Source: Frankia nepalensis
Lineage (GTDB): Bacteria; Actinomycetota; Actinomycetes; Frankiales; Frankiaceae
NCBI RefSeq assembly: GCF_016786325.1
Contig: NZ_JADWYU010000096.1
Span: forward strand, 1-64,000
Length of the DNA stretch: 64,000 nt
Direction: 5' to 3'
Both the position numbers and the translations under genes were made by a program. Below the pieces are notes generated by a model. The model had not been told where the DNA came from. It saw nothing but the letters and a program-made list of their open reading frames with translations, and searched no databases. This document shows, piece after piece, positions 58,849 to 64,000 of the stretch (positions within the stretch are counted from its first letter, which is position 1; each line of letters opens with the position of its first letter).

Positions 58849-59985
58849 CTACCGATGCATCCAGGCCGAGCTGTCGGCGTATTGGGCTTTTCTCTGCCGC
58901 GTGGACCACAGCGGAAAGGCATCGTGGCCGGGTTGGATCGATGTGAGGAGTTCTCTCAGTTCCGGCGCCTCGATCCTGGGCGCTTTGATCGCCTCGGCGA
59001 TCCGCCGGCAGGTGAGAAGGTCGATGCCCCGCTGGCCGGCGTCTTCGACGTATGCCAGCGCTCTCGCCGTGAGGTCGGCGGGACTTGGTTGCTCATCTCC
59101 TGGAGGTAGGGTCTTGAGCTTTCGCCTTTCGTAGTCGATCTCGGATGTGCCCCGTGCACCGCGAACCGCGTCCTCGGCCTCTGCCAGGGAGCGGGTGTCG
59201 GTGAGGAGCGGGGCGAGAAGGCTTCCCTCGTACACCTGACGGAGATCGGCGACGTAGACGTCCGCGCTCGCGTCGTTCAGTTCGACTGTCGCCCCTTCGC
59301 CGCGCAGCTCGACGGTTCCGCGGTGGCCGCGCGCGGCGGCGGCCAGGAGCGCCGTGGCCTCGGTGGGGTGCCATGCGAGGATCGTGCGCACGGCGTCGGC
59401 GTCCTGGTGGCCTACGGATGATGTTCGTCGTCCGCCGAGACCGCGAAGCCGGTTCAGCACGGCGGAGGCGGCGAGTTCGCCGTCCAGGCCCGGCCCGGCC
59501 ACGACCAGCTCCGTGGGCACGTCGAGACTCGCGCAGGCGGCGATGGCCAGGGTGTCGGCGAGCGGGCTCAGGAGTTCGGGCTCGTCACCTCGTGCGACCG
59601 CGTCTCCGCCGACGTCGATGAGCGAAACCTTGTCAACGTCCTCACGTTTGATGATCTCGCTGAGCTGGTCGTGGATTCCGACTGCGCCCTGGGACGGGTC
59701 GAGGAGGAGGAGAGGCGTGTCGATCGACCCCGCGAGCCGCGGGAGGGTCGATCTGCTGGGCGGGCTGACAGCTGTGGAGGACACGATGCGGGCGTTGAGG
59801 TCGCCGAACGGCCGCAGGCCGTTGAAGTCCCCGGCTCGTCGCGGTCCGGGCAACGGGTCGACGCGCAGGCGCTCCCAGGCGTAGGTGAGGATCGCTACAT
59901 CGACGTCGGACTGATCCGCCCGACCGATCATCACTGCGCCCAGGGCGTCGCCGCCGCCGCCGGTGGCCACGACCAGACGTCTCAT
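58849..59985 (-). CDS. DUF1152 domain-containing protein
   Basis: The 378-residue protein begins VVATGGGGDALGAVM, the glycine-rich start typical of DUF1152, and continues with LLLLDPSQG and VSLIDVGGDAVARGDEPEL, a second Gly-rich Asp-containing block. This suggests a nucleotide or sugar-phosphate binding Rossmann-like fold. Function is unknown. It is divergent from the GntR regulator of the lanthipeptide cluster, with a palindromic operator between them, so it may belong to the same regulon. Confidence 0.8.
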   Translation of the reverse strand: MRRLVVATGGGGDALGAVMIGRADQSDVDVAILTYAWERLRVDPLPGPRRAGDFNGLRPFGDLNARIVSSTAVSPPSRSTLPRLAGSIDTPLLLLDPSQGAVGIHDQLSEIIKREDVDKVSLIDVGGDAVARGDEPELLSPLADTLAIAACASLDVPTELVVAGPGLDGELAASAVLNRLRGLGGRRTSSVGHQDADAVRTILAWHPTEATALLAAAARGHRGTVELRGEGATVELNDASADVYVADLRQVYEGSLLAPLLTDTRSLAEAEDAVRGARGTSEIDYERRKLKTLPPGDEQPSPADLTARALAYVEDAGQRGIDLLTCRRIAEAIKAPRIEAPELRELLTSIQPGHDAFPLWSTRQRKAQYADSSAWMHR

Positions 59986-60029
59986 GGCGCAACCCTAGAT
60001 TCCGAGCGGCCCTCGTGGCGTACGCTGGC

Positions 60030-60053
60030 GGCCAGTGGCCAATGCCACTGGCC
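60030..60053. promoter_or_regulatory. GntR operator 1 (autoregulatory site)
   Basis: Perfect 10-base arms GGCCAGTGGC and GCCACTGGCC flank CAAT, directly between the DUF1152 gene and the GntR start. It shares GTGGC-N4-GCCAC with two sites downstream of the regulator. Confidence 0.75.
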
Positions 60054-60067
60054 GAAAGGGTGTTGCC

Positions 60068-60814
60068 GTGCCTGACCTTCAGCGGGTGCTTCCGAAGTAT
60101 CTGCAGATCGCGAACCATCTCCGAGATCAGATCCTGCGCGGCGATCTTCGGCCTGGCGCGGAGGTCCCGTCCGAGCGAACCCTTGCTGTCGACTGGAAGG
60201 TCAGCCGACCAACGGCAACGAAGGCCCTGGAGGCGCTGCGCGTGCAGGGCCTGATCGAGTCCCGGCAGGGCTCCGGCAGCTACGTCGTGGATCAGATGGG
60301 CGTTCATCGGCGGGCTCGCGAGCGGTATGGCCGAGGGCGCGAGACTGGTGCGATCTACCCGCCGAACGAGTGGGCCCGCATCGTCGCGGCCGAGATCGTG
60401 GCGGCGCCAGAGCATGTGGAAGCAGCGCTGGGCGGCGACGTGCCGCGGGTGATCCGGCGCCACCGGATCACCCATGGCGACGACGGACCCGTGGAGGTCT
60501 CCACGTCCTGGATCTCTGCCGCCCTGGCCGACGTGGCCCCTCGTCTGCTCCAGACCGAGCGGATCCGCGAAGGCACACTGGCCTACCTCGCGAGCGTCAC
60601 CGGCCTGCGAGCCCGCCTGGCCCGGGATCGGGTCACCGCCCGGCTGGCCACCGACACCGAGGCAGCCGACCTGGAACTGGGCCCCGGGCCGCACGCGGTT
60701 CTGGTGGTACGCCATGTCGTCTGCACCGAGGCGAACCAGCCTCTGGAGTTCGTCGAGGCTGTCTACCCGCCTGAGAGCTGGACGTTTGAGCAGGAATACC
60801 CCGTGACGAGCTAG
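60068..60814 (+). CDS. GntR family regulator with UTRA domain
   Basis: The 248-residue protein has a GntR winged helix (about residues 8-72; YLQIANHLRDQILRGDLRPG, then PSERTLAVDWKVSRPTATKALEALR) and a UTRA ligand-binding domain (about 90-245). It is of the HutC/YvoA type that senses small molecules. GTG 60068 has an AAAGGG site. The gene is flanked by one palindrome upstream and two downstream that share GTGGC-N4-GCCAC, so it probably represses both itself and the lanthipeptide genes that follow. The ligand is unknown. Confidence 0.87.
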   Translation: MPDLQRVLPKYLQIANHLRDQILRGDLRPGAEVPSERTLAVDWKVSRPTATKALEALRVQGLIESRQGSGSYVVDQMGVHRRARERYGRGRETGAIYPPNEWARIVAAEIVAAPEHVEAALGGDVPRVIRRHRITHGDDGPVEVSTSWISAALADVAPRLLQTERIREGTLAYLASVTGLRARLARDRVTARLATDTEAADLELGPGPHAVLVVRHVVCTEANQPLEFVEAVYPPESWTFEQEYPVTS

Positions 60815-60851
60815 GGACCCCGTCGCGAGCGCCGGGTTCTTGCTAAACCAG

Positions 60852-60890
60852 GTGGCATATGCCACTCTGAGGCAAGTGGCATATGCCACT
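60852..60890. promoter_or_regulatory. GntR operators 2 and 3 upstream of the FxLD methyltransferase
   Basis: GTGGCATATGCCAC at 60852-60865 and AGTGGCATATGCCACT at 60875-60890 are perfect palindromes. Their cores start 24 bases apart, in a 308-base region between the regulator and the methyltransferase gene, where they could cover its promoter. Confidence 0.75.
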
Positions 60891-61122
60891 GTCGGCATCA
60901 GTCCTTGATCCGGAGTCCGAAGGTGGCGTCGTCGGCCGAGAGCATGCCGGGGATCCGCTCACAGGCATGATCCGGAGCCGGGGCGCCGAGCGGCTTCCGC
61001 CGCCGCGACCAGCTACGTCACGGGGCTGGACGCCAGCAACCAAAGCCCGAATACCAACGCGCAGACCTTCCAGGAAGCGCCCGAGACCGCGTTACCCGCG
61101 GACATCAGGAAAGGGCACCGTC

Positions 61123-62343
61123 TTGAGCACCAGCACGAGCACCCGGGCTGAGGATCTTCGTAACGCCCTCGTCGACAAGATTGTCGCGGGGCATGTGCGG
61201 CAAGGGCTGACGATGCGCGCCGAGGTGGAGCGGGCGCTGAGGAAGGTGCCGCGTGAGTTGTTCACGCCGGGCGTGCCGCTCGAGGAGGCATACCGGGACG
61301 GCGCCGTCATCACCAAACGCAGCGCCGACGGCGTGAATCTGAGTTCGGTATCCGCGCCCTATCTGATTGCGGAGATGCTGGGCCAGGCGAAAGGCCGGCA
61401 CGTCCTTGAGATCGGCAGCGGGGGGTACAACGCCGCCTTGCTGCGGGAGATCGCCGGGCCAGGCGGGTCGGTGCTGACGGTCGATATCGACCAGGAGGTC
61501 ACCGACCGGGCCCGCGCCTGCCTGGACACGGCGGGCTATTCCGATGTTGAGGTCGTGTGCGCGGACGCCGAGTTCGAGATCGAGCCTGGCCGCGGGTTCG
61601 ATCTCATCGAGGTCACGGTCGGTGCGTGGGATATCCCGCCGGCCTGGATCAGCCAGCTCGCCGAAGGCGGCACCCTGGTCGTCCCGCTCCGCACCTTGGG
61701 CATGACCCGGTCGTGGGCACTGCGGCGCGCCGGGAATCACCTTGTGAGCACCAGCAACCTGCTGTGCGGATTCGTCCCCATGCAGGGCGAGGGCGCCAGC
61801 AAGGGCCGCAGTGTCCCCCTCGGCGACGGCGTCACGCTGTGGCTCAACGAGCATCAGCAGGACATCGACGGCGACCCGGTCGCCGCCGTGTTCTCCCAGG
61901 AACGGCATGAGGCACGGTCGGGGGTGACGGTCCCCAGCGGCCGGCTCTCCGCTGATCTTGACCTGTGGCTGGCGACCCACCTGCCCAATTTCGGCCTGAT
62001 GATTACCGAACTGGCGGCGATCGACAACGGCCTCGTCGTCCCGTCGTGGCGCTTCGGAACCCCGGCGTTCGTCGACGGTGCGACCCTGGCCTACCGGGGG
62101 AAGCTCCGCCAGGTCGACGACACCACGACCGAATTCGAGTACGTCGTCTACGCGCACGGACCCGATGCCGCCAGGCTCGCCGAGCAGATGGCCGACCAGA
62201 TCCGCGCCTGGGACAGGGCCGGCCGGCCTACTTCGACGTTGTGTGTCTTCTCCATCGGCACTCCCGACGCCGATCTTCCTGACGGAATGGTGTTGGACAA
62301 GAAGCACACCCGTCTCGTGTTCACCTGGCCAACCGCCAAGTAG
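61123..62343 (+). CDS. FxLD-system methyltransferase (PIMT-like)
   Basis: The product of 406 residues matches the methyltransferase of FxLD lanthipeptide systems: PRELFTPGVPLEEAYRDGAV at the N-terminus, SSVSAPYLIAEMLG, and the S-adenosylmethionine motif VLEIGSGGYNAALL (94-107), with a C-terminal domain specific to this family. Related PIMT-like enzymes in other lanthipeptide clusters methylate an Asp of the core and lead to isoaspartate or succinimide. The TTG at 61123 is used because AGGAAAGGG precedes it; the longer frame upstream crosses the operators. The precursor and dehydratase genes follow on the same strand. Confidence 0.87.
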   Translation: MSTSTSTRAEDLRNALVDKIVAGHVRQGLTMRAEVERALRKVPRELFTPGVPLEEAYRDGAVITKRSADGVNLSSVSAPYLIAEMLGQAKGRHVLEIGSGGYNAALLREIAGPGGSVLTVDIDQEVTDRARACLDTAGYSDVEVVCADAEFEIEPGRGFDLIEVTVGAWDIPPAWISQLAEGGTLVVPLRTLGMTRSWALRRAGNHLVSTSNLLCGFVPMQGEGASKGRSVPLGDGVTLWLNEHQQDIDGDPVAAVFSQERHEARSGVTVPSGRLSADLDLWLATHLPNFGLMITELAAIDNGLVVPSWRFGTPAFVDGATLAYRGKLRQVDDTTTEFEYVVYAHGPDAARLAEQMADQIRAWDRAGRPTSTLCVFSIGTPDADLPDGMVLDKKHTRLVFTWPTAK

Positions 62344-62438: not shown

Positions 62439-62576
62439 ATGGACCCCACGGAGTTCCAGCTCAACGTCCACCTCGTCGACGCCGGACCCGCCGGCGCGGT
62501 CGCGTCGGAGGACTGCACCTCCGACGAGTGCGGCTCGGGTGAGACCAGCAGCGACGCCTGCACGACCAACAGCTGA
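62439..62576 (+). CDS. FxLD-type lanthipeptide precursor
   Basis: The 45-residue peptide begins MDPTEFQLNVHLVDAGPAG, the leader pattern of the FxLD family, although the position of the D in FxLD is N (FQLN). The C-terminal 24 residues hold the likely core with Cys26, Cys31 and Cys41, several Ser/Thr residues (for example Thr27, Ser28, Ser33, Thr36, Ser37, Ser38, Thr42, Thr43) and acids Asp25, Glu24, Asp29, Glu30 and Asp39, the latter possible targets for the methyltransferase. AGAAAGGAC lies upstream. It sits between the methyltransferase and dehydratase genes, as expected. Confidence 0.8.
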   Translation: MDPTEFQLNVHLVDAGPAGAVASEDCTSDECGSGETSSDACTTNS

Positions 62577-62584
62577 CGCCAACA

Positions 62585-62614
62585 GGTGGCCCGGCCCCCG
62601 CGGGCCGGGCCACC
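62585..62614 (+). terminator. hairpin between precursor and dehydratase genes
   Basis: GGTGGCCCGGCCC and GGGCCGGGCCACC form a perfect 13-bp stem with a CCGC loop, nine bases after the precursor stop. A partial terminator or mRNA stabiliser here would yield more precursor than dehydratase. Confidence 0.75.
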
Positions 62615-62642
62615 CGCCCAACGGCCACAGGCAGAGGTAGCG

Positions 62643-64000
62643 GTGCACACATACCAAGCGGTGGACGCGGCGCTGATCAGGACCACGACCTTTCCCACCG
62701 GTCTGGAGTTACCACCGTGGCCGGACCTGAACAGCGACGACGTCGCGACCTGGCAGCTGTGGCTGCGGCAGGCATGGGCGTTGGACGGGTTCGCCGTCGC
62801 GGTGCGGGGCGCCTCGCGGGAGTTGGCCGCCCAGGTGGAGCGGCAGCTCGCCTCGCCTGCAGCAGCCGACCGGTCCTCGGTGCGGTCGGTGCGGCGGCTG
62901 GTGGAGACGCTGATGCGGTATTTGCTGCGCTGGACGAGCAGAGCAACCCCGTTTGGGCTGTTCGCCGGCATCGCTCCCGTCGAGTTCGACGCCCGGGCGC
63001 GCGCCGCCTGGGAAGGCGACCACCGGGTGGTGCACCGGCCGGACGGTCTGCTCGTGGCGGAGCAGGCCGGGCGGATCGAAGCGCGGCTGGACATGTTGCG
63101 GACGGTCCCGGTGGTGACCAACAGCCTCGGGTTTGCCCGCGGCAGGGTGTGGGTCGTGCCGGGCGTGAGCGCCGACGGCCAGCTCTGGGACGCCGAGGTG
63201 AACCTGACCCGCCCCGTGCGGCTGGCTGTGGACCTGGCCCGCCGGCCGATCGGGTTCGCCGACCTCGCCGCGAAGCTGGCCGTCGACGCACCGACGGTCG
63301 AGCGAGCGGTCATCGAACGGATGCTGGCCGGCCTGGTGGCCCACCGGGTCCTGGTGACACCGGTACGTCCCCCGATGACCGTGACCGACCCGGCGACGCA
63401 CCTCGCCCGCTACACCCCCGGCCCGGAGCCGGAGCCGGCCGTACGGCCGGCGGCCGACGTTCGAGTGGGCTGTGCGGTGGCGCTGCCTGCGGCGGTGCTG
63501 CGCGAGGCCGAACGCGCCGCTTCGGTCCTCACCCTGGTCGCGCCGGAGATGCCCGGCTGGCGGCCCTATCACCAGGAGTTCCTCGACCGGTACGGACCGG
63601 GGGCGGCGGTGCCTGTCCGGGAACTGGTCGGCGGATCCGGGCTGGGCCTGCCCCCGGGATACCGGGCGTCGCACCGGCGCGCGCCGCGGCTGCTCACCGC
63701 CCGCGACGTCACGCTGGCGAAGATCGCACAGCACGCCGCCCTCGACGGCCGTGCCGAGGTGCTCCTGGGCGACGAGCTGATCGCCGCGCTGACGGTCGCG
63801 GATCGGCCGCCGGTTCCGCACACCGAACTCCGTTTCAGCCTCGCGGCCGAGTCGCTGGGCGATCTTGATCGTGGCGCGTTCACGCTGACCGTGATCAGCG
63901 GTGCCCGGCATGCCGGTGTGACCGTCGGCCGGTTCCTCCACCTGCTCGACCCCGCCGAACAGGAGCGCTTCCGCCACGCCTACGCGACGCTGCCGACCGC
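62643..64000 (+). CDS. lantibiotic dehydratase (LanB-type), cut by window end
   Basis: The open frame from GTG 62643 has no stop before the window end, giving 452 residues. It begins MHTYQAVDAALIRTTTFPTG and contains the LanB N-terminal signature TPFGLFAG (102-109) after an ETLMRYLLRWTSR helix; later parts match the glutamylation domain of lantibiotic dehydratases. These enzymes use glutamyl-tRNA to dehydrate Ser/Thr in the precursor. It should be about 800-1000 residues long in full. An AGAGG site precedes the start. The C-terminal elimination domain and cyclase should lie beyond the window. Confidence 0.87.
   Translation, partial: MHTYQAVDAALIRTTTFPTGLELPPWPDLNSDDVATWQLWLRQAWALDGFAVAVRGASRELAAQVERQLASPAAADRSSVRSVRRLVETLMRYLLRWTSRATPFGLFAGIAPVEFDARARAAWEGDHRVVHRPDGLLVAEQAGRIEARLDMLRTVPVVTNSLGFARGRVWVVPGVSADGQLWDAEVNLTRPVRLAVDLARRPIGFADLAAKLAVDAPTVERAVIERMLAGLVAHRVLVTPVRPPMTVTDPATHLARYTPGPEPEPAVRPAADVRVGCAVALPAAVLREAERAASVLTLVAPEMPGWRPYHQEFLDRYGPGAAVPVRELVGGSGLGLPPGYRASHRRAPRLLTARDVTLAKIAQHAALDGRAEVLLGDELIAALTVADRPPVPHTELRFSLAAESLGDLDRGAFTLTVISGARHAGVTVGRFLHLLDPAEQERFRHAYATLPT

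Follow-up and report, generated by a model that had tools for sequence, protein, structure and literature searches.

The window analyzed here, a stretch of 64,000 nucleotides from Frankia nepalensis, carries copies of one palindrome on both sides of a gntR gene, which raises the question of which protein these sites serve and which genes they control. A sequence-only reading of this DNA had described three GTGGC-N4-GCCAC palindromes, one with a CAAT center before gntR and two with ATAT centers behind it, and a scan of the window found all three exactly as stated (60035-60048, 60852-60865 and 60876-60889). They lie inside the operators termed O1, O2 and O3 (Table 1), and the O1 arms are perfect over 11 bp (CGGCCAGTGGC-CAAT-GCCACTGGCCG). 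There are no further copies in the 64 kb, where 0.31 would be expected, and none of 100 shuffles reached three. The tandem pair is indeed upstream of a methyltransferase gene, but it is ~234 bp from the start codon (TTG 61123) rather than immediately before it.

Table 1. Features of the locus in window coordinates.
Feature	Positions	Strand	Remarks
DUF1152 (PF06626) gene	58849..59985	-	Pfam 4.5e-74; divergent to gntR
Putative gntR -10 box, TACGCT	60021..60026	+	TANNNT just before the operator in most orthologs, by inspection
Operator O1, 26-bp palindrome	60029..60054	.	Core AGTGGCCAATGCCACT, 60034-60049
gntR	60068..60814	+	HutC/UTRA subfamily repressor; R37, R47 and G68/G70 at DNA-reading positions (alignments)
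Putative -35 box, TTGCTA	60840..60845	+	Operator-overlaid promoter
Operator O2, GGTGGCATATGCCACT	60851..60866	.	Within the -35/-10 spacer
Putative -10 box, CACTCT	60863..60868	+	Overlaps right arm of O2
Operator O3, AGTGGCATATGCCACT	60875..60890	.	24 bp from O2; predicted transcription start
Predicted leader/junction	60891..61122	+	AgB1.9 module homology ends at 60891 (blastn, window vs. AgB1.9 contig)
FxLD-system methyltransferase (PIMT-type, LanS_A-like)	61123..62343	+	TTG start; TIGR04364, 446.4 bits (cut-off 320)
Putative lanthipeptide precursor, MDPTEFQLNVHLVDAGPAGAVASEDCTSDECGSGETSSDACTTNS	62440..62577	+	Read from sequence
LanB dehydratase	62586..64000	+	Continues past the window to contig position 65579; PF04738, 2.4e-167

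A whole-genome motif search had also been proposed as a check, and its outcome depends on the motif used. The bare GTGGC-N4-GCCAC pattern occurs at 54 places in the 10.73-Mb genome, and extrapolation of the window shuffles predicts nearly as many (~52); thus the pentamer palindrome by itself has no specificity. The 16-mer AGTGGCATATGCCACT, when up to two mismatches are allowed, is found in the genome solely at O1, O2 and O3. At three mismatches there are seven additional places, and the reversed-pattern control gives 44. The single extra AT-rich match to the bare motif (C365:37451) overlaps the 3' end of an open reading frame. A genome-wide regulon was rejected because, beyond the three local sites, none lies within two mismatches of this 16-mer.

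The local GntR protein combines an N-terminal GntR wHTH domain (PF00392, 1.5e-17, 63.4 bits) with a C-terminal UTRA domain (PF07702, 1.4e-15, 57.7 bits), both above cut-off, which places it in the HutC subfamily. Orthologs with 49-88% identity are present in other Frankia, a Dactylosporangium MAG, Actinokineospora terrae and others, on Streptomyces plasmids, and at seven loci from one genus of another family, taken as Streptomyces-like, that are closely related and count as one lineage. Most orthologs are followed by genes of mobile elements called AICEs, the integrative conjugative elements of actinobacteria (Pra, FtsK/TraSA, RepSA, Xis and Int; the RepSA of locus L055 matches PF20199 at 1.3e-108), and this company marks the protein as a KorSA-type AICE repressor.

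The operators accompany these orthologs. The fuller motif AGTGG-N6-CCACT, counted at up to two mismatches in the 460 bp that surround each of 15 orthologs, gave 45 matches, whereas its frequency in the remainder of the loci predicts 2.5. Typically, one operator precedes the gntR start by ~31-36 bp and two follow the gene at a start-to-start distance of 24-25 bp, a spacing shared by Frankia, Dactylosporangium, Actinokineospora, G256 and Streptomyces-like genomes. In genome G001, ~800 bp separate gntR from the pair, which lies right at pra. When O1 of the window is compared with that of Frankia sp. AgB1.9 (G033, contig NZ_JADWYX010000166.1), a member of the same genus, the 22 arm bases are identical and all four center bases differ. 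Plasmid p3 of Streptomyces angustmyceticus (L177; NZ_CP104320.1, 6431-7560) keeps DUF1152 and all three operators; its gntR, which matches in two pieces and is unannotated, may be broken.

A further tie between sites and protein comes from the way in which a relative reads its DNA. NagR recognizes GTGG-N6-CCAC by contacts from Arg38 to G-5, Arg48 to G-4 and Gly69 to G-7 (PMC4333415). With residue equivalence taken from aligned motifs (PSER, SRPT and the wing) rather than from a structure of the local GntR, the corresponding R37, R47 and G68/G70 are present in 16 of 16 orthologs, and base -4 is G in those that carry R47. Members of a neighboring AICE clade carry N, H, L, M or T at position 47, and the half-sites of their operators are of the GTGT or GCGT type, with T at -4 in a GTNCTAGNAC frame. 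L107, a distant homolog that retains R47, has the site AGTGGACCAGTCCAGT, and L058, with R47 but Q37, has no clear site with either G or T at -4. Base -4 thus follows residue 47, which ties the local palindromes to the local GntR proteins in a pattern matching the solved NagR-operator contact. Judged from these comparisons, the neighboring GntR repressor very probably binds the three palindromes.

The placement of the sites suggests what they do. By inspection, most orthologs have a TANNNT box 3-7 bp upstream of O1. In 13 of 14 orthologs, against a background of 1.7%, a TTG begins 11-12 nt ahead of the first member of the tandem pair, and CACTCT, CACTAT, CACTGT or CAGTAT follows the -35 hexamer by 17-18 bp in 13 orthologs, although predicted -10 boxes such as CACTCT are weak matches to TANNNT. 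In the window, the -35 box at 60840 and the -10 box at 60863 enclose O2 in their spacer, and the predicted start, at ~60875, falls on the first base of O3. Because the tandem pair overlays a promoter, GntR most likely represses both itself and that promoter, and a repressor seated on O1-O3 would block RNA polymerase. Less in favor of this reading, a leader of ~250 nt would lie between the predicted start and the methyltransferase gene; a DNA search for the origin of its 60891-61122 portion gave short, weak matches alone. An in-frame ATG at 60883, inside O3, would lengthen the methyltransferase by 80 codons, but this extension resembles noncoding leader; G001 has a comparable in-frame ATG within the operator before pra.

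By its gene content, the locus that this promoter faces belongs to the FxLD/PIMT type of class I lanthipeptide clusters. LanB and LanC homologs are present (PF04738, PF14028 and PF05147), and LanB is followed by a LanC-like gene and a Lant_dehydr_C gene. The candidate precursor, a 45-aa open reading frame with an FQLN leader motif and a Cys-containing core, matched no family in profile searches, and locus L145 has a similar short gene at the equivalent place. The nearest relatives of the methyltransferase are in L152 (91%, truncated), which backs the TTG start, and L145 (79%), and neither has related operators nearby. In L152 (G031:C1:3658553-3662212), the methyltransferase is cut after ~220 aa and followed by an apparent tyrosine-recombinase gene. 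Among 59 FxLD loci sampled, the operators occur in the window alone; at 57 of the 58 others, a related gntR is missing within 1.5 kb, none has the tandem AGTGG-N6-CCACT pair, and the operators were accordingly rejected as a general feature of FxLD clusters. A Frankia FxLD methyltransferase at L154 (G021:C209, ~100-1000) has a divergent HutC GntR with ~28% identity to the present group and three CTTCCTAGGAAG palindromes near its start, possibly an independent case of GntR control over an FxLD cluster.

Since nearly all the other FxLD loci manage without a nearby related gntR, and all of them without the tandem operators, such clusters evidently need no control of this sort, and the operators might act on gntR and DUF1152 only, with the lanthipeptide genes using their own promoter in 60891-61122 and the neighborhood being incidental. 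The AgB1.9 comparison bears on this reading in both directions. By blastn, the window matches AgB1.9 at 82% DNA identity across 58896-60891, a block that begins at the end of DUF1152 and stops one base beyond O3; outside it, the only similarity is a short methyltransferase stretch, and this stop right behind O3 favors the incidental reading. However, O2 and O3 overlay a conserved promoter aimed at the methyltransferase, no other gene is evident between O3 and that gene, and in AgB1.9 a methyltransferase start codon lies ~30 bp past O3. The incidental reading is unlikely. The AgB1.9 methyltransferase is truncated, and is 83.5% identical to that of L151, another AgB1.9 locus, and only 54% to that of the window, so one regulatory module stands before methyltransferases of two clades. 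Because of this truncation, the link between gntR and lanthipeptide genes stands on one intact case.

It is also conceivable that a different HutC regulator of the DasR/NagR type binds the sites. The dre operators share the GTGG-N6-CCAC frame, such that the cluster would answer to amino-sugar signaling instead of the local GntR. DasR and NagR (YvoA) are among the closest solved relatives, and NagR uses a GTGG half-site with 6-nt spacing. The dre consensus is A[GC]TGGTCTAGACCA[GC]T, and the local operators depart from it at the center (GGCATATGCC vs. GGTCTAGACC). Furthermore, the exact dre-like sequence STGGTCTAGACCAS is absent from the genome, matches to it with one or two mismatches number 138 vs. 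238 for the reversed control, and the sites track the korSA-like gntR across genera at fixed positions, all of which make control by such a regulator distinctly improbable. Least credible, to the point of being very improbable, is that the palindromes are RNA hairpins (a terminator or attenuator behind gntR) rather than operators: O2 and O3 could jointly form a hairpin with 15-bp arms, but no T run follows the palindromes, the centers of O2 and O3 differ in most relatives, which therefore conserve AGTGG/CCACT but not the long hairpin, one copy also precedes gntR, and base -4 tracks protein residue 47.

If local GntR control is accepted, the origin of the switch can be considered. The modules in the window and AgB1.9 precede FxLD methyltransferases without nearby AICE genes. 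The 120-kb contig that includes the window has no AICE gene (tblastn) and no tRNA, and on this basis a location inside an AICE was rejected; the four RepSA genes of the genome are all on other contigs. In the gntR tree, which leaves the deeper branching order without resolution, the window and AgB1.9 are sister to two other Frankia loci (92/86), one in a complete AICE and one with a Pra remnant. From this tree and the AICE linkage of other orthologs, we infer that the module descends from AICEs, and the arrangement resembles an AICE repressor cassette that has come to stand in front of biosynthetic genes. A bolder idea, possible although somewhat doubtful, is that the DUF1152-gntR-tandem-operator block might be a portable cassette that escaped from mobile elements and was set repeatedly before different lanthipeptide clusters (or with the downstream genes swapped later), so that the output of antibiotic-type peptides would obey a former conjugation signal.

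The constant partner of the gntR orthologs is the divergent DUF1152 gene, not the methyltransferase, and for this reason the earlier suggestion that O1 also acts on DUF1152 is plausible. Sequence searches found no solved relative of DUF1152, and Foldseek, queried with an AlphaFold model (pLDDT 68.5), returned no match at E <0.001. Alignment of model residues 1-254 by VIA-align ranked PIG-L/LmbE-type N-deacetylases best (Z 10.4, 3.9 A, 187 residues), and the top 11 rows were all of this type. The HPDD metal motif is not evident, with GGGGDA in place, and the deacetylase likeness may serve as a lead only. As NagR takes amino-sugar ligands, DUF1152 might conceivably be connected with the ligand of the UTRA domain.

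Read together, the computed features (sites, conservation, genome exclusivity, residue/base covariation, promoter overlay and AICE linkage of relatives) suggest how binding, repression, ligand release and the direction of descent might fit into one scheme, and it is likely that a three-operator GntR switch of KorSA/AICE origin governs this FxLD lanthipeptide cluster. A GntR dimer on O1, at the gntR start point, would repress gntR and perhaps the divergent DUF1152 gene. A pair of dimers, bound at O2 and O3 with a spacing of 24 bp, would cover the spacer, -10 box and start point, keeping off the promoter read toward the cluster until a UTRA ligand releases the repressor and turns it on. DUF1152, gntR and the tandem operators would derive from a KorSA-type AICE switch, whose operator pair would control pra or another first element gene in AICEs, and which would have been placed before lanthipeptide genes in the present Frankia lineage. 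The cluster-specific control by the adjacent GntR proposed in the sequence-only reading is upheld by the ortholog-linked conservation, the covariation and the lack of genome sites elsewhere, but that account was incomplete, lacking the AICE/KorSA type of the regulator, its usual mobile-element targets and the FxLD lanthipeptide nature of the cluster. An AICE-type repressor with its operators physically within a biosynthetic cluster presents a testable takeover of a mobile-element switch for the control of a peptide natural product. The AGTGG-N6-CCACT motif and the rule relating residue 47 to base -4 offer target prediction for the whole repressor group, and gntR deletion might be a route to waking a silent Frankia lanthipeptide cluster.

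Several known systems resemble parts of this arrangement. KorSA, a HutC/GntR repressor, controls the AICE pSAM2 by its own operators, with autoregulation and pra as the next gene (PMC8584621). The AICE Faln1739 of F. alni ACN14a carries a KorSA-like GntR and is reported to excise in culture and nodules (PMC3218068), and this GntR is very probably the ortholog at L055 (63%). Like the window, L055 has DUF1152, O1 and tandem operators, followed by pra, traSA, repSA, xis and int; unlike the window, its operator pair is ~800 bp behind gntR, before pra, in a mobile element reported to excise. NagR (YvoA) and DasR belong to the same protein family and read GTGG-N6-CCAC by an Arg-Arg-Gly set (PMC4333415) that has aligned equivalents in the local GntR, but they serve an amino-sugar catabolism regulon, are distant in protein similarity (E ~1e-14 to 1e-22) and use another operator center. 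On the biosynthetic side, the FxLD/LanS_A PIMT-type clusters ("lanthimiditides", PMC13001092) have methyltransferase, LanB, LanC-like and Lant_dehydr_C genes in common with this locus, along with a small precursor gene, for which the locus has a candidate, and the sampled FxLD loci differ from the window in the near-universal absence of a nearby related gntR. No described case of an AICE-type switch before a lanthipeptide cluster was found in the open-licence literature. SCO3932, from an AICE remnant in S. coelicolor, binds secondary-metabolite promoters in trans, and a 2021 report presented it as the first AICE regulator with a demonstrated connection to secondary metabolism (PMC8584621). The window shares with KorSA and SCO3932 a HutC/GntR repressor gene that adjoins its operators, and the local repressor would likewise act on its own gene and on the next one; the window differs from both in having no AICE, an operator pair directly before a lanthipeptide cluster and a divergent DUF1152 gene. 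With its action in trans from an AICE remnant and a different reported motif (AC[TC]T[AG]TT[GC][TG][GT]ACG, PMC8584621, vs. AGTGG-N6-CCACT here), SCO3932 is the nearest precedent.
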